From a virus: 22,506 nt of DNA. The notes under the pieces are model-generated. The model was not told where the DNA came from. It worked only from the letters and a program-made list of their open reading frames with translations, and searched no databases. The stretch spans positions 1-22,506 of the IMG/VR virus record IMGVR_UViG_3300046691_000209. One strand, 5' to 3'. Position numbers and translations under genes: made by a program. Below, piece by piece: positions 4,448-20,917 of the stretch; the stretch's first letter is position 1; each line of letters starts with the position of its first letter.

Positions 4448-7400
4448 CGCCGCTCCCGTTCCACCTCCGGGGGCGCCACGTCCAGCACGCGCACGGCCAT
4501 CGCACGGTTGAGCTGGCGGACGGAGAGCACCTGAGCGGAGGCATGATCGCCCTCATGCCGACTGCGGCCGACGCCACGCGGCTCAAGCTGGCCGGGGGCG
4601 AGACCGCTGCCGATCTGCGCGTCACGCTGTTCTACCTCGGACCGGACATGTCCGTGTTCAGCGACGGGGACAAGTCGGCGATGACCAACCGGGTCCTGGA
4701 CGCGATCGGCCGTAATCCGGCCACAGTGACCGGGAACGTCTTCGGGACCAATCACTGGAACGGCAACGGTGAGGATCCCTGCTGGGTACTCGGGGTCGGG
4801 GACGTGCCTGCGGAAGACCGTCCCGAGAACGGCATGACGCTTGAGTCGGTACGCGCCACGGTGGCGGATGCCCTGGACATGTTCCCGGTGCCCTCCCAGC
4901 ACACCCCCTGGGCACCTCACATCTGCATGGCGTACACCTCGGACCTGTCCCTGGCCAAGGAACTCCAGAAGCGGCTGGGCCCGGTGGAGTTCGACCGGGT
5001 CCGGGTCGCCTTCGGCTCCGACTACACGGACATCCCGCTGTCCGGTGCGCTGACCGCTGCCACAGCCCCGCTGCGCCGGAACCTCACCTCCACCGAGCTG
5101 GCCGCGCACACCGACTTCGAGCGGATGCAGTCCACCTGGGAAGCGGCCGTGGACGCGGTGCTGAAGGATCTGGAGCCGGTGTTCAAGGCCCAGCAGGCGG
5201 ACATCGTGGGGCAGGTGTCCGTCGCCGCGAAGGCGGACGACCTGAGCGCCCTGGACTCCGTCACGGTGGACGAACAGGCCGCGTACGAGGTGCTGGCCCC
5301 GGCGCTGCTCAAGGCAGCGCAGCAGGCAGCGGAGGCGCAGCAGAAGGAAGCCGAGGCGCAGGGGGTCACGGTCCCGGACTGGTCCCTGACCTCCGACACG
5401 GTCACCGCTGCAGCGGGCCGGGACCTGCTGGACCAGGTGGCCCGGGTCACCGCCCGGCTCATGGCCACGTCCCTGGTCCAGAGCGCCGTGCGCACGGCGC
5501 TGCGCCTGTTCGGCCACGGCAACGCGCCGGGCGCGGTGACGGCCGGGGTCCAGCAGCATCTGGACGACCTGACCGACGCCCAGCCCCGCGAATCCGTGGG
5601 CGGGGCCGTGACCCAGGCCCAGGCCGAAGGCAGGCGCACCGTTCTCGCGGTCGCTCCAACAGGCCGGTACTTCGCCAGCGAGGTGCTGGACCGGAACTCC
5701 TGCAAGCCGTGCCGGGACATCGACGGCACGGAGTACGCGAGCCTGGCGACCGCCTTCGCCGCGTACCCGTCCGGCGGGTACAGGCGGTGCCTGGGCGGAT
5801 CGCGGTGCCGGGGGACGATCGTTACCGTGTGGAACCAGCCGGCTGGTGCGACCGCTTCGGCAGCCGTGGACAAGGGAGTGAGCATGGCCTACGAAGTGAC
5901 CCAGGACCGGCCCGAGTGCTCGGGGGACACCCCGGTCGCGGTCGTCAACACCATGGATGACAGCCTGTGCGGCTGCTACGCCACGCCCGAGGAAGCGGCG
6001 CAGGCGGTGGACCAGATGGACAGCGGCGACATGCCTCCGGAGTCCATGGACTACGCGGCGCAGAACGTCTACGGGGCGGAACTGGGACCCGCTGCGGAGG
6101 ACGGATCCACCGCTCCCTGGACCGGGCCGCTGGCGGTGGAGGGGATCGTCACTGGGGACGGCCGGGAGTTCGCCCCGGACGCGCTCACGTGGGCGGACCT
6201 GCCGGTCCCGCTGCGCTGGAACAAGGAGGACAGCCACGGGGGTGAGCCGCACACCGTGGCGGTGAACGTGGGCCGGATCGACAAGATCTGGCGCGACGGG
6301 TCCAAGATCATGGGTTCCGGGGTGCTGAACCTGGCGGTGCCGGACGGGCAGACCGCGTACGACCTGATCAAGGGCAAGTTCCTGCGGGGCGTCTCCATCG
6401 ACGCGGACTCCATCACCGATGCGGACGTGGAACTGGTCTGGCCCGAGAGCGACGGGGCCGTGATGGAGGACGATCCGCTGGCCGCGCTGTTCGGAGGTCC
6501 TCCGCCCGAGAAGATGATCTTCCATGCGGGGCGGATCCGGGCTGCCACGCTGGTGGACATCCCCGCATTCGCCGAGGCGTACGTGGCGCTCACCGACGAC
6601 AACGGCGCCGTGGTGGCCGGGGGCGAGCCGTACACGTTCGCGGCCGTGGCGGTCCACCACACGGCAACTTCCGATGCGTCCTGGGACGCCGGGATGAACG
6701 AGAAGAGGCTTCCCTCCCCGCTCACGCTGGCTCAGGCGCGCGCCGCGTACGCGTGGACCGACGACAGCGCGGTGGACGCGGGCAAGATCCCGAAGACCGG
6801 GTGCAAGTTCATCCACCACGAGGTCAACGCGGACGGCTCCGCCGGCCCGGCCAACCTGGCAGCCTGCTCCGCCACGATCGCGGTCCTGCACGGCGGGCGC
6901 GGGGGCACCACGATCCCGACGGCGGATGAGCGCGGGGTGTACAACCACGTGGCCGCTCACCTGAAGGACGCGGGGAAGGTCCCGGCGCCGTTCGCGGCCG
7001 ACGACGCGGTCACGGCAGGGGCCATGGCGGAGATGGCGGACTTCCGGCCGCACCCGTCCCGGTTCGCGGACCCGAAGCTGGCCGGGTACACCGGGGTGGT
7101 CATCACGGACGACGGGTACCTGTACGGGCATATCGCGCCGTGGAACGCCTGCCACATCGGCTACGACGGGCAGTGCGTCACCGCCCCGCGCGAGGACACG
7201 CACGACCACTACATGACCGGTGAGGTGGTGTGCTCCGACGGGTCCCGGGCCGCGGTCGGGCAGATCACGATCGGAACCGGCCACGCGTCGCTGTACGTCG
7301 GGGCGCGCCCGGCAGCGGAGCACTACGACAACACCGGCACCGCGGTGGCCGATGTGGCGGTCGGCAACGACAAGCACGGGATCTGGCTGGCCGGGCAGAT

Positions 7401-7695
7401 CCGGCCCGGCGCCGATCCGTCTGCGGTGTTCGCCCTGCGGGCAGCGGGCCGGGTCAGCGGGGACTGGCGCAACATCGGCGGGAAGCTGCGCCTGGTGGCG
7501 CTGCTCGGGGTGAACACGGCCGGGTTCCTCGAATCGGACCTGCGGACCCGGGCGCGCGTGGCCGGAGGCCAGCCGATGGCGCTGGTAGCGGCGGGGGCGA
7601 CCGCTCCCGTCTGGCATCCTGAGGGCATGGACATCGCCAGGGCGTACAAGCTGATCATGGATCAGACCCTCGCCCGGTTCACCGAGGGGAGGTGA
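4444..7695 (+). CDS. Fusion: 2H-like domain, MuF-like domain, capsid maturation protease
   Basis: One continuous 1083-residue frame carries functions often on separate genes. Residues about 1-205 resemble a 2H phosphoesterase (LRVTLFYLG at 58-66, APHICMAYT at 157-165), although the first catalytic histidine is absent. Residues about 215-470 are MuF-like (SPP1 gp7 type) minor head protein, ending in DRNSCKPCRDIDG (416-428), YPSGGYRRCLGG and SRCRGT. From 481 the maturation protease begins: a first part with a possible His (H598 or H603) and LRGVSIDAD (S651), a helical insert with KFIHHEVNADG (about 740-850), and a second part with GHIAPWNACHIG (895-906), HYDNTG (960-965) and RVSGDWRNIGG (S1005). 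The protease would trim scaffold and the capsid N-terminus before DNA filling. The GTG start overlaps the portal stop. A ribosome site before Met481 suggests a second, shorter protease product. Domain limits are judged by eye. Confidence 0.85.
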   Translation: MTPLPFHLRGRHVQHAHGHRTVELADGEHLSGGMIALMPTAADATRLKLAGGETAADLRVTLFYLGPDMSVFSDGDKSAMTNRVLDAIGRNPATVTGNVFGTNHWNGNGEDPCWVLGVGDVPAEDRPENGMTLESVRATVADALDMFPVPSQHTPWAPHICMAYTSDLSLAKELQKRLGPVEFDRVRVAFGSDYTDIPLSGALTAATAPLRRNLTSTELAAHTDFERMQSTWEAAVDAVLKDLEPVFKAQQADIVGQVSVAAKADDLSALDSVTVDEQAAYEVLAPALLKAAQQAAEAQQKEAEAQGVTVPDWSLTSDTVTAAAGRDLLDQVARVTARLMATSLVQSAVRTALRLFGHGNAPGAVTAGVQQHLDDLTDAQPRESVGGAVTQAQAEGRRTVLAVAPTGRYFASEVLDRNSCKPCRDIDGTEYASLATAFAAYPSGGYRRCLGGSRCRGTIVTVWNQPAGATASAAVDKGVSMAYEVTQDRPECSGDTPVAVVNTMDDSLCGCYATPEEAAQAVDQMDSGDMPPESMDYAAQNVYGAELGPAAEDGSTAPWTGPLAVEGIVTGDGREFAPDALTWADLPVPLRWNKEDSHGGEPHTVAVNVGRIDKIWRDGSKIMGSGVLNLAVPDGQTAYDLIKGKFLRGVSIDADSITDADVELVWPESDGAVMEDDPLAALFGGPPPEKMIFHAGRIRAATLVDIPAFAEAYVALTDDNGAVVAGGEPYTFAAVAVHHTATSDASWDAGMNEKRLPSPLTLAQARAAYAWTDDSAVDAGKIPKTGCKFIHHEVNADGSAGPANLAACSATIAVLHGGRGGTTIPTADERGVYNHVAAHLKDAGKVPAPFAADDAVTAGAMAEMADFRPHPSRFADPKLAGYTGVVITDDGYLYGHIAPWNACHIGYDGQCVTAPREDTHDHYMTGEVVCSDGSRAAVGQITIGTGHASLYVGARPAAEHYDNTGTAVADVAVGNDKHGIWLAGQIRPGADPSAVFALRAAGRVSGDWRNIGGKLRLVALLGVNTAGFLESDLRTRARVAGGQPMALVAAGATAPVWHPEGMDIARAYKLIMDQTLARFTEGR
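5872..5886 (+). promoter_or_regulatory. Internal ribosome site and ATG at the protease boundary
   Basis: AAGGGAG at 5872-5878 sits 5 nt upstream of an in-frame ATG at 5884, codon 481 of the fusion gene. The protein from there, beginning MAYEVTQDRPEC, starts exactly where the MuF-like part ends and a typical protease N-terminal segment begins. Initiation here would give a 603-residue stand-alone protease in addition to the full fusion. Purine-rich codons can mimic such a site, so use is inferred from the coincidence of spacing and domain boundary. Confidence 0.5.
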
Positions 7696-16224: not shown

Positions 16225-16617
16225 ATGTCCTTCAACGTGTCCACCTCGTTCCGGCTCGAACAGAGCCGTGTAGCGCGTCTCCTACGGCTTCCCGGGGGTG
16301 CGGTGGACCGGAGTCTCAGGCGCCGCGTGGAACGCGTGCAGACGGCCGCACAGCGCCTCGCACCGGGGTCCATGGGCAACGGCATCCGTACGTCCCTGCG
16401 CTACACCCACGACGGGCCGGTGGGAACGATCACGTCCACCCACCCCGCGACCATCTACGTGGTGAACGGGACCCGGCCCCACATCATCCGGCCGAAGCGC
16501 ACCGGGGGCGTCCTGCGGTTCGAGATCGGGGGCCGGGTCGTGTACGCGCGGTACGTCTCGCACCCCGGCACGCGTCCGAACAACTTCCTCATCGAGGCCC
16601 TGCGCGCCGCACTCTGA
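16225..16617 (+). CDS. HK97 gp10-like neck/tail-completion protein
   Basis: This 130-residue basic protein starts at an ATG just after the previous stop, with GAGGAA upstream. It contains an N-terminal helix rich in arginine (VDRSLRRRVERVQTAAQRLAP), then GSMGNGIRTSLRYTHDGPVGTI, an ATIYVVNGTRPHIIRPK strand region, and ends HPGTRPNNFLIEALRAAL. The sequence of 'helix - AP - strand - Y..VN.GT.PH.I.PK - HPG...P.FL..AL' is the usual pattern of the HK97 gp10 / minor capsid family found in siphovirus necks, where it helps complete the tail and joins it to the head. It is the last forward gene before the second reverse-strand gene. Confidence 0.85.
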   Translation: MSFNVSTSFRLEQSRVARLLRLPGGAVDRSLRRRVERVQTAAQRLAPGSMGNGIRTSLRYTHDGPVGTITSTHPATIYVVNGTRPHIIRPKRTGGVLRFEIGGRVVYARYVSHPGTRPNNFLIEALRAAL

Positions 16618-16698: not shown

Positions 16699-16989
16699 CT
16701 ACCACGGCCCGCACCCCGGCTCGGTGCAGTGGCCCGGGAGGTTGTGCCAGACACGGACGAAGCGGTCCGCCTGGCCTTCATGGGCGGACTCACGCGCCGG
16801 GTTCCAGCCCTTGAGCAGGCACAGGGTCCAGCGCAGTCCGCTGATCTGGCCGGTCAGGTTGTCCCGGACCACGTAGCCGGCGTCGGACAGGTCCCCCAGG
16901 ATGCGGTCCCGGGCATGCATGGCCCAGACCACCTGTTCCGCGATCCGGTCGGTGAGTTCGGCCGCTGTGAGGGCCGTGGGTTTCGTCAT
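16699..16989 (-). CDS. Unknown small protein, reverse-strand moron-like gene
   Basis: On the reverse strand, GGAGG lies 5 nt upstream of an ATG at 16989 and opens a 96-residue frame. The product has an N-terminal helix (TALTAAELTDRIAEQVVWAMHARDRILGDL, split as one amphipathic stretch), then GYVVRDNLTGQISGLRWTLCLLKGW, an EGQADRFVRVWHNLP segment and a CTEPGC tail. The tryptophans and regular helices look like a genuine soluble protein. I do not recognise a family. Like the reverse gene at 7827-8702 it opposes the virion operon and has an AT-rich dyad about 20-40 nt upstream of its start, with GTTAC and CCGGG elements beyond. It is probably an independently expressed accessory gene sharing regulation with that gene. 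Forward frames over the same bases look like shadows. Confidence 0.75.
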   Translation of the reverse strand: MTKPTALTAAELTDRIAEQVVWAMHARDRILGDLSDAGYVVRDNLTGQISGLRWTLCLLKGWNPARESAHEGQADRFVRVWHNLPGHCTEPGCGPW

Positions 16990-17007
16990 CGTTCCTCCGT
17001 CGGGTCG

Positions 17008-17051
17008 GGTTCATTTAAGTAAACCACGGATCTGGCCCGGAAACCAGTAAC
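17008..17051 (-). promoter_or_regulatory. Putative promoter/operator of the second reverse gene
   Basis: Read on the reverse strand the region gives GTTAC (17051-17047), CCGGG (17040-17036), TCCGTGG and then GGTTTACTTAAATGAACC (17025-17008), an imperfect dyad pairing at 7 of 9 positions. The same elements in the same order precede the other reverse gene (GTTAC, CCGGG, TCCATGG, GGTTTAATTAAACC). The spacing from GTTAC to TGGTTTA is 22 nt there and 25 nt here. The dyad ends about 18 nt from the start codon. Confidence 0.55.
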
Positions 17052-17067: not shown

Positions 17068-17102
17068 CCGGGCCCGCACCGACCTGCGGGAGTGTTTTCA
17101 GA

Positions 17103-17236
17103 GTGAGGAGTGTGGGGAACGGCCCTTCTAGGCCATGCCTCTGTGACTGAGCATTCTAAATGATCTTAAAATCCTTGATCAACTTCTCTTCACTCACAAA
17201 CGCATGGCCTAGAAGGGAGAAAGTCACACTCCACAC
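17103..17236. repeat. Long imperfect inverted repeat with AT-rich centre
   Basis: Three paired blocks are nested: 17103-17114 with 17225-17236 (11 of 12), CCCTTCTAGGCCATGC at 17123-17138 with its exact complement at 17202-17217 (16 of 16), and 17139-17151 with 17189-17201 (9 of 13). An unpaired 8 x 7 nt bulge separates the first two blocks, and about 37 AT-rich nt (containing TGATC and GATCA) form the tip. It lies outside any gene. It could be a structured RNA, a strong insulator or terminator, a recombination site or a small non-autonomous mobile element. Confidence 0.75.
17107..17122 (+). repeat. Direct repeat GGAGTGTGGGSAACGG, copy 1
   Basis: GGAGTGTGGGGAACGG here matches 17319-17334 at 15 of 16 positions, about 212 bp away. 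Copy 1 overlaps the outer arm and bulge of the long inverted repeat. Confidence 0.6.
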
Positions 17237-17318
17237 CCATTCTCACACCGGAGGGAACGATTCCGCCCTGTTTGTCCTTCCATACGTACGGGTGTACCCA
17301 GGTGTGTCCGCAAATGCC

Positions 17319-17334
17319 GGAGTGTGGGCAACGG
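17319..17334 (+). repeat. Direct repeat GGAGTGTGGGSAACGG, copy 2
   Basis: GGAGTGTGGGCAACGG differs from copy 1 by a single base. It is followed at once by CCACACCCCACACC, which could pair with the GTGTGG of either copy and so permits alternative RNA folds in front of the chaperone gene. Confidence 0.6.
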
Positions 17335-17436
17335 AATCCACACCCCACACCGCCGAACCCGAACCCCACACCCTCACCGACCGTGACGGAATCCAGCCCG
17401 GTCAAGATCGCTCCCTCAGTCCCCTACGGTGGCCCC

Positions 17437-17901
17437 ATGAGCGAGAGCACGGGCCCGCTGACCGGGTCCACAGACGACGGGGTGAAGGACTTCACCCGGC
17501 AGCACGAGCGGATCAGGTTCCGCATCGACGGAGACCTGTTCGAAGCGGCGCGGGCGCTGCCCGGTAAGACGCTGACGGAGTTCGCGACCCGCTTCGAGAC
17601 GATCGGCGCCATGCCGGTCGGGGCGCAGGTGGACGCGATCCTGGACGCGCTCGGGCTGGTGCTGCTCCCCGACTCCGCCGCGGCGGTGGCCAAGCGGCTG
17701 GGGGATCTGGAGAACCCCATCGAGCTGGAGCAGGCCAGCGAGGTCATGATCTGGTTGCTGGAGAAGTACGGGCTGCGCCCTACACAGCCGTCCTCGAACT
17801 CTGCCGGTGGGCCGGTCAGCCCGGTATCTGGCACGAACTCGACGGACGTTCCGCAGCTTCCGGCACCGACTTCGCCTACCTCCCCGCCGACCGGTTCCTG
17901 A
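17437..17901 (+). CDS. Tail assembly chaperone, short form
   Basis: An ATG at 17437 gives a 154-residue protein: MSESTGPLTG, DDGVKDFTRQHERIRFRIDGDLFEA (in two adjoining parts), GKTLTEFATRF, and a helical ELEQASEVMIWLLEKYGLRP. This is the pattern of the first (G-type) tail assembly chaperone of actinophages, which coats the tape measure during tail assembly. After about 17781 the frame degrades to Pro/Ser/Thr-rich sequence while the -1 frame becomes strongly protein-like, implying a programmed frameshift. The ribosome site is poor (GGTGG, 4 nt away) and TACGGT at 17425-17430 could be a -10 element giving an almost leaderless mRNA. An in-frame TTG upstream at 17272 would add a low-complexity leader and is not favoured. 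Confidence 0.8.
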   Translation: MSESTGPLTGSTDDGVKDFTRQHERIRFRIDGDLFEAARALPGKTLTEFATRFETIGAMPVGAQVDAILDALGLVLLPDSAAAVAKRLGDLENPIELEQASEVMIWLLEKYGLRPTQPSSNSAGGPVSPVSGTNSTDVPQLPAPTSPTSPPTGS

Positions 17902-18125
17902 ACCTGGTCTACGCGGAGATGCTCCAGCGGGTGCGGGTACACGAGGGCCAGAGCGCGGAGGACGCGCGGAAGGTCCTGGACAGCATGCTGTCCGTGGCCG
18001 GCTGGGCGGTGCCCGGCTCCGGCCCGAAGCGTGTGAAGCAGCGTGACCCGAAGGCACCGTGGTGGTGGACCGATGAGGAAGACGCGTCGGACTCCTTCCT
18101 CAAGGCGATGGGGGTGAGCCTGTGA
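17781..18125 (+). CDS. Tail assembly chaperone, -1 frameshift extension
   Basis: From about 17781 the -1 frame reads YTAVLELCRWAGQPGIWHEL, DGRSAASGTDFAYLPADRFL and so on to WWWTDEEDASDSFLKAMGVSL, a convincing protein of about 114 residues with no usable start codon before 17919 and no ribosome site there. In siphoviruses the second chaperone (T-type) is made as a fusion to the first by ribosomal frameshifting just before the tape measure gene, and gene order here is the same. Joining at CCC-T (17778-17781) gives ...KYGLRPYTAVLEL..., a 229-residue fusion. No canonical X-XXY-YYZ heptamer is present, so the slip point is uncertain. Its stop overlaps the tape measure start. Confidence 0.75.
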   Translation, partial: YTAVLELCRWAGQPGIWHELDGRSAASGTDFAYLPADRFLNLVYAEMLQRVRVHEGQSAEDARKVLDSMLSVAGWAVPGSGPKRVKQRDPKAPWWWTDEEDASDSFLKAMGVSL

Positions 18126-20917
18126 GCGAGCAGATCGGCGAAGCCCATATCGAAGTCGATATGGACACCACCCCGGCGCAGCTCGCGCTGCGAGAGTTCA
18201 GCCGGGACGCGAACAACCGCCTGCACGACATCCGGGGCCGGTTCGTCGCGGAGGGCCAGCAGATCTCCCGCTCGCTGGAGAGCACATCCCGGGACACGGA
18301 CCGTTTCGGCCTGTCTCTGCGGGGCCTGGGCGTGTCCCTGGGCCCGCTGGCAGGGATCCTGGGCAAGACCGCCCTGAGTGTCGGCAGCATCGGCGCAGCG
18401 GCGGGCACAGCGCTGCCCCTGATCGCATCCGTGGCCACGGCGCTGGGGCAGATCGCCCCGGCCGGAGCCGTGGCCGTACCGGCGCTGCTGGCGGTCACCC
18501 AGGCCACCCAGACCATCAAGCTCGGCATGATCGGCGTGCAGGACACGGTGACTGCTGCTTTCGACACCAGCGCGGCGGGGGCCAAGAAGTTCCAGGCAGG
18601 TCTGGACAAGCTGGCTCCGTCCGCCAGGGAGTTCGCCCTCACGGTGAAGTCCCTGGTACCCGCGTTCACCGACTTCCAGCAGAGCATTCAGCAGCAGCTC
18701 TTCACCGGGCTGTCCGCCGAACTGACGAAGCTGTCCACGTCCGTCCTGCCGGTGCTCCAGACCAACCTGACCGCCACGTCCGGGATCCTCAACAAGGTCG
18801 CCCTGAGCACAGCAGGGGCAGCAGCCCAGCTCGCCACGGACGGCACCCTGGGCAAGGCGCTGGCCGGGGCCAATACCGGGCTGACGAACCTGTCCGGGAT
18901 CCCGGCGCTGGTCGTCACCGGGCTGGGCCAGCTCGCCACCGCAGCGGCCCCGGCGTTCGACCGGATCACCCAGGCCGCGGCCGGCGCCGCTACGTCGATC
19001 TCGGACAAGCTGAGCAAGGCGTTCGCCTCGGGCGGTCTGGAAGACGCGATCAACACCGCGATCGATGTCCTGTCCGGGCTGGGGGACATCGCGGGGAACG
19101 TCTTCGGGATCCTGAAGAACGTCCTGGGGGCGGCGTCCACGGGCGGGGCGGGGCTGTTCCAGGTGCTCACGTCCATCACCCAGACGTTGCAGGACGCCAC
19201 CGCGACCAAGGGGTTCCAGGACGCGATAGGCGCCCTGGTGCAGACCATGGGCGTGGTGGCGGACACAGTGGGCCCGCTGCTGGGCCAGGTGATCGGCGTC
19301 CTCGGGCCGGTGTTCGTGGCCCTGGCCGGGCCCGTACAGACCCTGGTGCAGGCGCTGGGCGCCGGGCTCACCCCGATCATCACCGGTCTCGGTCCGGTCC
19401 TTGAGGGAACCGCCCAGGCCATCGGCGCGATGGTCGTCGCGTTCGCCCCGCTGCTCCCGATCCTCGGGGACCTGATCGCGTCCCTGCTCCCCCCGCTGCT
19501 CCCGGTCCTGGACACGATCACCCAGGCGTTCACCGACGCGGCTCCGCTGATCGTCCAGCTCGGGGACGCCTTCGTGAGCGCCCTGGTCCCCGCGATCACA
19601 TCGCTGACCCCGGTCATTTTTCCGCTGCTGGACGTGTTCACCCAGCTCACGGCCCAGCTCCTGCCGGTGCTGTCCGACCTGATCGTTCAGCTCCTGCCGA
19701 CCTTCACCGCGTTCGTGTCGGCGGTCGCAGGGGTAGCCCCCCAGCTCACGCCGTTGATCGCCCAGATTCTTCCCGTGCTGGCGGACCTGTTCGTCCAGTT
19801 GCTGCCGTCCATCGTCCAGGTGTCCACCGCGATGCTCGGTCTCACCACCGCGCTGCTGCCAGTGATCGGACTGCTGGCCCAGGCCGTTTCCTTCGTGCTT
19901 CCGATCATGTCCCAGTGGGTCAGCCTGATCGCGTCGGTGGCCGCTGTCCTGGTGGGGGTGCTGGCCGGGGTCATCACGAACATCGTCATTCCGGTGATCA
20001 ACACCCTGGTCGCACTGTTCTCCGGGGACTTCTCCGGGGCGCTGCGGGGCCTTGGGTCCCTGTTCACCGGGATCTGGAACCAGATCGCCACCACGGTGAG
20101 CAGCGTGGGCGGCCTGGTCCGTAAGGCCGTCGACACGATCATCGGCATCTTCCGGTACCTGTACGACACGCTGGTGGGGCACAGCATCATCCCCGACCTG
20201 GTCAACCGGATCATGTCCCTGTTCACCGGGCTGGGGGCGTTCCTGTCCGGAGCCGTCGGACGGATCCGCAGCACGCTGGTGGGGGCGTGGAACTCGATCG
20301 CCTCCGCCACGTCCACCGCCTTCAACCGGGTGCGCACCGCGGTCTCCGACGCGATCGGGGACGTGGTGCGTACGGTCAGCGGACTCAAGGGCCGTATCAC
20401 CGGGGCGCTGGGCAACGTGGGCTCGCTGCTGTACAACTCCGGCCGGTCCCTGATCTCCGGGTTCATCAGCGGTATCAAGTCCATGCTGGGGTCCGTCGGC
20501 AGCGCGGCGAAGTCCGTAGTGCAAAAAGCCCGGGACTTCTTCGGGTCCTCACCCGCCAAGGTGGGACCGCTGTCCGGCAAGGGCTGGACGCTGTATTCCG
20601 GCCACGCGTTCGCCTCCGACTTCGCCGCGGGTATCCGGGCCAACCAGTCGCTGGTGGCCAGCGCGGCCGGCCGGCTGGTCTCCGGCGCCGCTGCGCCCGT
20701 CTCGGCCGGGCAGGGTGTTGCATCCCTGCTGTCCTCCACCCGTACCGCCCAGACGGTCACCGCGCAGGCCGCGGCCCCGAACGTGAGCGTGAACACGTCC
20801 GCCCCGCGTGTCACGGTGATGATCGGGAACAAGGTGATCAATGATCATGTGCAAGTGCTGATCGACGACAACAACGCGACCGTGGCGCGCCAGCTCGCGC
20901 AGGGGGTGAGGACCTGA
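18122..20917 (+). CDS. Tape measure protein
   Basis: This 931-residue protein sets tail length and is ejected before the DNA. It begins at a GTG overlapping the chaperone stop (GTGA). The N-terminal 60 residues are charged and helical (EFSRDANNRLHDIRGRFV). The middle is almost wholly hydrophobic or small residues, with a loose repeat around LLPVLxxLIxQLLP between about residues 430 and 630. Then come a more polar helical region (GAWNSIASATSTAFNRVRTAV), a DFFGSSPAKVGPLSGKGW motif and a short basic/acidic C-terminus. SSPAKVGPLSGKGW is common near the end of actinophage tape measures. At the usual 1.5 A per residue, tail length would be about 140 nm. No lytic-transglycosylase or peptidase domain is visible. 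Confidence 0.95.
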   Translation: MSEQIGEAHIEVDMDTTPAQLALREFSRDANNRLHDIRGRFVAEGQQISRSLESTSRDTDRFGLSLRGLGVSLGPLAGILGKTALSVGSIGAAAGTALPLIASVATALGQIAPAGAVAVPALLAVTQATQTIKLGMIGVQDTVTAAFDTSAAGAKKFQAGLDKLAPSAREFALTVKSLVPAFTDFQQSIQQQLFTGLSAELTKLSTSVLPVLQTNLTATSGILNKVALSTAGAAAQLATDGTLGKALAGANTGLTNLSGIPALVVTGLGQLATAAAPAFDRITQAAAGAATSISDKLSKAFASGGLEDAINTAIDVLSGLGDIAGNVFGILKNVLGAASTGGAGLFQVLTSITQTLQDATATKGFQDAIGALVQTMGVVADTVGPLLGQVIGVLGPVFVALAGPVQTLVQALGAGLTPIITGLGPVLEGTAQAIGAMVVAFAPLLPILGDLIASLLPPLLPVLDTITQAFTDAAPLIVQLGDAFVSALVPAITSLTPVIFPLLDVFTQLTAQLLPVLSDLIVQLLPTFTAFVSAVAGVAPQLTPLIAQILPVLADLFVQLLPSIVQVSTAMLGLTTALLPVIGLLAQAVSFVLPIMSQWVSLIASVAAVLVGVLAGVITNIVIPVINTLVALFSGDFSGALRGLGSLFTGIWNQIATTVSSVGGLVRKAVDTIIGIFRYLYDTLVGHSIIPDLVNRIMSLFTGLGAFLSGAVGRIRSTLVGAWNSIASATSTAFNRVRTAVSDAIGDVVRTVSGLKGRITGALGNVGSLLYNSGRSLISGFISGIKSMLGSVGSAAKSVVQKARDFFGSSPAKVGPLSGKGWTLYSGHAFASDFAAGIRANQSLVASAAGRLVSGAAAPVSAGQGVASLLSSTRTAQTVTAQAAAPNVSVNTSAPRVTVMIGNKVINDHVQVLIDDNNATVARQLAQGVRT

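Follow-up and report, generated by a model that had tools for sequence, protein, structure and literature searches.

Position and structure of the hairpin

What is the role of a long hairpin lying in a gap between the tail genes of a siphophage? The hairpin occupies 17103-17236 of the window analysed here, which is the 22,506-base virus record IMGVR_UViG_3300046691_000209 from IMG/VR. The window possesses siphophage late genes (terminase, portal, major head protein, major tail protein and tail completion), and the hairpin is situated in the gap which follows the tail-completion gene and a small reverse gene and precedes a presumed tail chaperone gene. Comparison with related records suggests that it is probably a further copy of a replication element composed of iterons and a stem-loop, to which the phage primase-helicase would bind. 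It would form the core of a roughly 300-bp element, in which GTGTGGG-type iteron clusters, partly inverted, surround a stem with an AT-rich tip, and the window element would duplicate one located where the phage's own primase-helicase gene has its 3' end. The original prediction on this DNA listed several readings and did not include a replication element, the one to which the relatives point. The parts of the element are as follows.

17079-17089, forward strand: CCGACCTGCGG motif, found by pattern search
17103-17114, forward strand: left outer arm, pairing with 17225-17236 over 12 nt (92% complementary) and overlapping a GAGTGTGG motif at 17108
17123-17138, forward strand: left inner arm, exact 16-bp block
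17151-17189: AT-rich tip of 39 nt, 27/39 A+T (neighbouring 500-base windows are 59-70% G+C)
17202-17217, forward strand: right inner arm, exact 16-bp block
17225-17236, forward strand: right outer arm with the inverted motif, identified by arm pairing
17315-17352: distal motif cluster (GGAGTGTGGGCAACGGAATCCACACCCCACACC), with 0 differences in the related records G005 and G006

The arms, exact block and A+T-rich tip of the original prediction were all recovered on re-measurement. The inner arms pair over 28 nt (17123-17150 with 17190-17217, 89% complementary) and hold the 16/16 block. The outer-arm sequence is repeated 212 bp downstream, as had been noticed (17107-17122 and 17319-17334, 15/16 identical). 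The structure is beyond chance: the RNA fold of 17095-17245 has -63.6 kcal/mol (z -7.42) and the DNA fold of 17103-17236 has z -6.69, and 0/200 shuffles were as good in either case. In a gapless scan with a loop of at most 130 nt, no other inverted repeat in the window reached a score of 14. When whole genomes were scanned by fold energy without correcting for composition, the hairpin did not stand out, because GC-rich coding DNA folds strongly. The hairpin is intergenic in the window, as originally described; the gap gave no match to a gene family, its open reading frames (ORFs) being taken from a mechanical list and not each followed individually. The unit is probably wider than the hairpin and extends over about 17079-17390. 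The tip keeps GATC in 9/9 aligned copies and TGATCA in 6/9, and contains promoter-like hexamers on both strands.

Second copy at the primase-helicase gene

In 4/4 long close relatives (G002, G004, G005 and G006), a DNA match revealed a second, distant copy which lies antisense at the 3' end of a large gene, and G013 likewise possesses a second copy at its primase gene. The large gene belongs to the P4-family primases (primase_Cterm 2.6e-45 in G002; D5_N also matched), and neither Pfam nor NCBIfam reported a primase domain in its N-terminal part. In G002 the primase gene ends after the second copy, and the next ORF, which is partial and without Pfam match, resembles the beginning of a DNA polymerase. 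In G005 the copy is inside a continuous ORF which runs through it into DNA polymerase A (9.3e-30).

L024 10345-14442: single ORF of 1365 amino acids which joins a P4-family primase-helicase to a family A DNA polymerase

GTGTGG/CCACAC is rare in these genomes, and its two richest 300-bp windows are the tail gap and the primase place in G002, G004, G005, G006 and G013. The counts were 10 and 7 against 3 in the next window in G013, and only 7 and 3 against 2 in G005. The commonest same-strand spacing of the GTGTGGG-type motif is 9 bp, with 22 cases over 16 partly overlapping records. GTGTGG was also found upstream of the primase, and in G002, G004, G005 and G006 a GAGTGTGGRCAGTGTGG motif is positioned just upstream of the gene.

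The primase C-terminus, modelled with 22 aligned relatives, was predicted to form a winged helix (pLDDT 82.5). The five best solved chains (Z 7.5-8.4) were RFX proteins, African swine fever virus PrimPol and the P4 origin-binding domain, with Z 8.4 for the RFX DNA-binding domain, 7.7 for the AsfvPrimPol C-terminus and 7.6 for the P4 domain 1ka8 (rank 4, root-mean-square deviation 3.1, 78 aligned). Foldseek gave no match for this C-terminus at E 0.001 or better, and a PDB sequence search gave no credible match (best E 1.1). No primase relative was found in bacterial genomes; 42 stretches fitted the peptide pattern and tblastn confirmed none.

To the wider family belong 31 fetched primase loci, not all independent, of which 29 were scored, leaving out L052 (primase equal to that of L051) and L070 (cut at the helicase). 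In 10/29 loci the best inverted repeat follows the helicase match at a distance of 156-272 nt, and in 6/29 it precedes the end of that match by 2.3-2.7 kb, near the primase gene start. At some more distant primases the arrangement persists with a different sequence.

Conservation of the tail-gap element

The exact hairpin pattern was present in 5 IMG/VR stretches, and a protein search with the chaperone led to 10 loci. Over the part of the gap held by each, G001, G002, G003 and G011 are identical to the window, while identity is 98% in G004, 85% in G006 and 84% in G005. In the last two, the outer motifs are kept, the stem interior is changed, 10 nt are missing, and the promoter-like spacing in the tip is lost. 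Searches with the gap (DNA), the chaperone and the reverse gene (protein) found none of the named phages, and plasmids gave two short matches only. In 4/16 stretches found with the 16-mer (L005, L118, L119 and L120), the 16-bp arm is within about 50 bases of the stretch end, as though the hairpin or repeat had interrupted the assembly. The original prediction had considered a miniature inverted-repeat transposable element (MITE) or an attachment site. Scattered copies at varied sites, as expected of the former, were not encountered; the copies keep fixed places in the relatives compared, and the exact hairpin pattern had 0 matches in bacterial genomes, a scan which gives no support to an attachment site either. 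Sites lacking the element differ too much, through their reverse genes, for a target-site duplication to be read from them.

When nine copies drawn from the two places are aligned, 81.5% of 314 cells are paired, against 28-53% when the partner is slid. Both sides changed in 10/35 pairs, which 31/500 shuffles reach, and the covariation score is 0.177 against 0.129 shuffled, with 6/500 shuffles as high. Compensatory arm changes had been proposed as support for an RNA; partial compensation between copies does exist, but the score is not RNA-specific, as a DNA palindrome covaries too. The strong RNA fold and this covariation, of which the both-side changes are the weaker part, would suit a terminator, processing site or other RNA hairpin insulating the reverse gene from the tail operon. 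No T-run follows 17217 or 17236, the ends of the two stems, which leaves an intrinsic terminator unsupported, and Rfam gave 0 matches at gathering, its two matches of E 0.07 and 0.3 being far below that threshold. The two copies are opposite in orientation to their transcription and one of them is inside a coding frame; a transcribed RNA is therefore unlikely, and the earlier suggestion of a structured RNA was not borne out. An insulator is conceivable for the tail gap and leaves the copy beside the primase unexplained. Overall, we regard an RNA role as very improbable.

Sequence differences amount to 9.5-12.7% in the flanks and 27-33% in the stem interior, compared with 27-28% at pooled four-fold sites. 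At the four-fold sites of the two adjacent genes they are 9-10% in G005 and 18-24% in G006. The tail-gap copy might be a fossil without function, left by duplication of the primase gene's 3' end and now decaying; it has sequence in common with the coding copy, and in G005 the adjacent four-fold sites are as conserved as the gap flanks. A fossil would hardly explain the distal cluster without differences, flanks which change less than pooled four-fold sites, or a position retained in phages even where the neighbouring gene has no more than 47-51% identity, and we find this explanation scarcely credible.

Co-occurrence of the element and the primase

Co-occurrence was tabulated for 15 records, all possibly fragments, of which G012 holds the primase side only. 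The tail-gap element was found in 5/5 records in which tail genes occur together with a primase at least 84% identical, and the trait of P4-type iteron origins, regularly spaced short repeats at two cis sites, was found in 5/5 such records. The element was found in 0/4 records (G007-G010) whose chaperones are 57-63% identical and in which such a primase was not detected; since the records may all be fragments, failure to detect a primase says little about its true absence. G013 possesses both primase and element although its chaperone is only 60% identical; its tail-completion (73%) and major tail (67%) proteins, on the other hand, are more similar than those of G007-G010. Inside its tail-gap element is a palindrome (G013:24767-24808, in L083) with two perfect TTATCCACA boxes. 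These are the only two TTRTCCACA boxes, which we take to be the DnaA box consensus, in 61.7 kb. A different gap of 250-300 bp was observed between the tail-completion and chaperone genes at G015:3458-3733, G016:91927-92223 and G017:33589-33838; the three are alike by eye and the GTGTGG element is absent from them.

The motif upstream of the primase also fits a cluster of operators. Here the repeats would be binding sites for a phage regulator, which might be the winged-helix protein itself, controlling the primase and the late or reverse-gene promoters, and the palindrome would loop DNA or block RNA polymerase. In agreement with this, a conserved palindrome (17008-17025) lies beside the start, at 16989, of the divergent reverse gene, and the tip has its promoter-like hexamers. 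On the other side, one copy is inside the primase-polymerase reading frame far from the gene start, the promoter-like spacing is lost with the missing 10 nt in G005 and G006, and the palindromes are larger than an operator needs. We consider operators unlikely as the explanation of the element.

Inverted repeats in named Streptomyces phages

Six of 12 named phages (Geonosis, phiSAJS1, Abt2graduatex2, Mischief19, Xkcd426 and YDN12) were read over the first 50 kb each, along with the Mischief19 primase region. All six possess at least three inverted-repeat copies, which scored as about 150-345 bp long and contain short repeats of their own. The copies are placed in the gap upstream of the primase, after the tail-completion gene, which is the position in the window, and after the annotated tape-measure gene, with one small gene intervening in some phages. 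The window gene which defines this position is the following.

16225-16617, forward strand: tail-completion/Neck1-like gene (phrog_5, 2.5e-5), preceding the element

Its protein is 51% identical to Geonosis gp19 (about 1e-34) and 47% identical to that of phiSAJS1 7297-7668. In Geonosis, Abt2graduatex2 and phiSAJS1 the inverted-repeat element is directly 3' of this homologue (47-51% identity to the window protein; phrog_5 match in the first two), and in Xkcd426, YDN12 and Mischief19 the placement is based on gene order. Mischief19 has a reverse gene between the tail-completion gene and the element, as in the window. TGACCTGC is paired around the inverted repeats of six named Streptomyces phages, which is suggestive only, as the motif occurs elsewhere too.

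The internal repeats differ between phages, and the closest copy is from the same phage in 14/18 cases, including 9/9 in three divergent phages; the four exceptions are all in the close Geonosis-Abt2graduatex2-YDN12 group. Likeness of the copies within a phage is expected if one protein reads them all. In Abt2graduatex2 (L113), 7296-7587 and 42680-42971 are identical over 292 bp in opposite orientation, 35 kb apart. The tape-measure and tail-completion genes have swapped places between phiSAJS1 (L112 7297-7674 and 17789-21607) and Geonosis (L111 4473-7520 and 19584-19949), also when Abt2graduatex2 is compared, and each gene is still followed by an inverted-repeat element.

This swap, the identical Abt2graduatex2 copies and the stretches which end within 50 bases of the 16-mer would also be consistent with a recombination element, its copies being homologous or site-specific hot spots for module exchange or concatemer resolution. 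But repeats recombine whatever their function, and neither the primase link nor the short internal repeats are explained in this way. We consider recombination quite improbable as the explanation of the element. Operator and recombination roles are possible ones which could coexist with a replication element.

No report of these repeats was found in literature searches. The words 'repeat' and 'inverted repeat' are absent from the main text of the Geonosis paper (PMC11536984), and 'repeat' from the searched text of the cluster BG paper (PMC5511901). The feature tables viewed of Woodruffvirus-group phages list no repeat feature, and in YDN12 two hypothetical coding sequences overlap the repeats.

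A candidate replication element and its weaknesses

As a replication element, the unit would work in successive steps. The C-terminal winged-helix domain of the P4-family primase-helicase would bind the iterons, and the enzyme would assemble on the palindrome. The AT-rich tip would then open, or the stem would be extruded, after which the helicase would unwind and the primase would prime. The outcome would be two start or control sites far apart on the phage genome, of which the tail-gap copy might be a full origin or an auxiliary or control site comparable to the crr of P4.

Several observations weigh against this proposal. The stem is uneven in quality, the DNA z of eight folded copies being -6.7, -3.2, -6.0, -3.3, -2.1, -8.7, -1.2 and -2.4. 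The GTGTGG clustering is partly circular, because the motif was chosen from these loci, and is description more than test. A Z of 7.6 for the modelled C-terminus is within the range which a common fold can give. No inverted repeat scoring at least 14 was found in 9/29 primase loci, and in 4/29 the best one is elsewhere. Among G014-G018 (primase 57-61%), 0/5 have GTGTGG in the tail gap while the cluster at the primase is present; the second copy is therefore dispensable. A pattern search found no DnaA box in the window gap. In G004, G005 and G006 the lowest point of the cumulative GC skew falls within 2 kb of the primase start, and in G002 the skew is low at this place too. With 3-kb sampling, however, it has no clear turn at the tail gap, and it varies with the direction of the genes as well.

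More tentatively, it is conceivable that a Streptomyces-type siphophage group replicates from two or three dispersed iteron-palindrome origins, alike within each phage and one always behind the tail-completion gene, with one lineage having an origin inside the primase-helicase-polymerase linker; we hold this broader proposal with rather less than even confidence. If true, it would provide mapped candidate origins, tied to a named initiator, for a phage group with none found in the literature searched, and would allow a direct test in the isolated phages Geonosis, YDN12 and phiSAJS1. Dispersed copies evolving in concert would show joint change of initiator and origin, as well as the influence of repeated origins on the shuffling of modules. 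If an origin does lie inside a protein linker, replication signal and coding sequence overlap there in an unusual way.

Genes around the element

The other genes flanking the element in the window are listed below.

16699-16989, reverse strand: small reverse gene, family unassigned, without match in PHROG and Pfam
17437-17901, forward strand: presumed tail assembly chaperone, following the element, assigned by its position before the presumed tape measure; overlaps the ORF 17807-18046
18122-20917: long ORF, presumed tape measure

The reverse gene is matched in G002, G004, G005 and G006 and has no match in G013, which keeps the element; it is a passenger, because the G013 gap without it still carries the element. 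At 16988-17025 a ribosome-site block CATCGTTCCTCCGTC is found with the palindrome GGTTCATTTAAGTAAACC, and the block recurs before several small reverse genes in G002, G005 and G006. The relatives of the chaperone have 57-100% identity. Its ORF and 17807-18046 overlap in different frames before the presumed tape-measure gene, resembling tail-chaperone genes expressed by frameshift.

Comparison with known systems

The Woodruffvirus-group repeats resemble the window element and its primase copy in being inverted repeats with short internal repeats, in several copies, beside the primase and after the tail-completion gene. They differ in their internal repeats (GGCAGAAGTGG, TTCCCGCGAAACGCGGGAA and GTGCATGCTCAGTGAA), a GC-rich tip, three copies, and a primase copy upstream of the gene and not downstream. 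A TGACCTGCGG motif common to both is suggestive and occurs elsewhere too.

P4 possesses ori1 plus crr as replication sites bound by its alpha protein. The present system is similar in its P4-family primase-helicase with a predicted C-terminal winged helix, its short repeats and its two cis sites. One legend of PMC9942202 names crr and a P4 origin, and PMC4234260 describes winged-helix binding at the origin repeats.

The latter paper describes the stem-loop origin of the pRN1 family of Sulfolobus plasmids, proposed also for phage BIP-1, as a diverged stem with conserved flanks, without iterons, which works when moved elsewhere on the plasmid (PMC4234260). The present element shares the diverged stem between conserved flanks with its structure kept, although some copies fold weakly. 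The pRN1-type protein combines primase, SF3 helicase and a C-terminal winged helix, and the phage protein has primase_Cterm, D5_N and the predicted winged helix; in contrast to pRN1, family searches of it reported no archaeal-type primase domain. The element differs further in the short repeats flanking the stem, the two or three copies per genome, and the one copy within coding sequence. In position, the best inverted repeat at the primase comes after the helicase match in 10/29 loci and the window copy is displaced. The primase copy has the anatomical points of the pRN1-type origin, with P4-like short repeats added.
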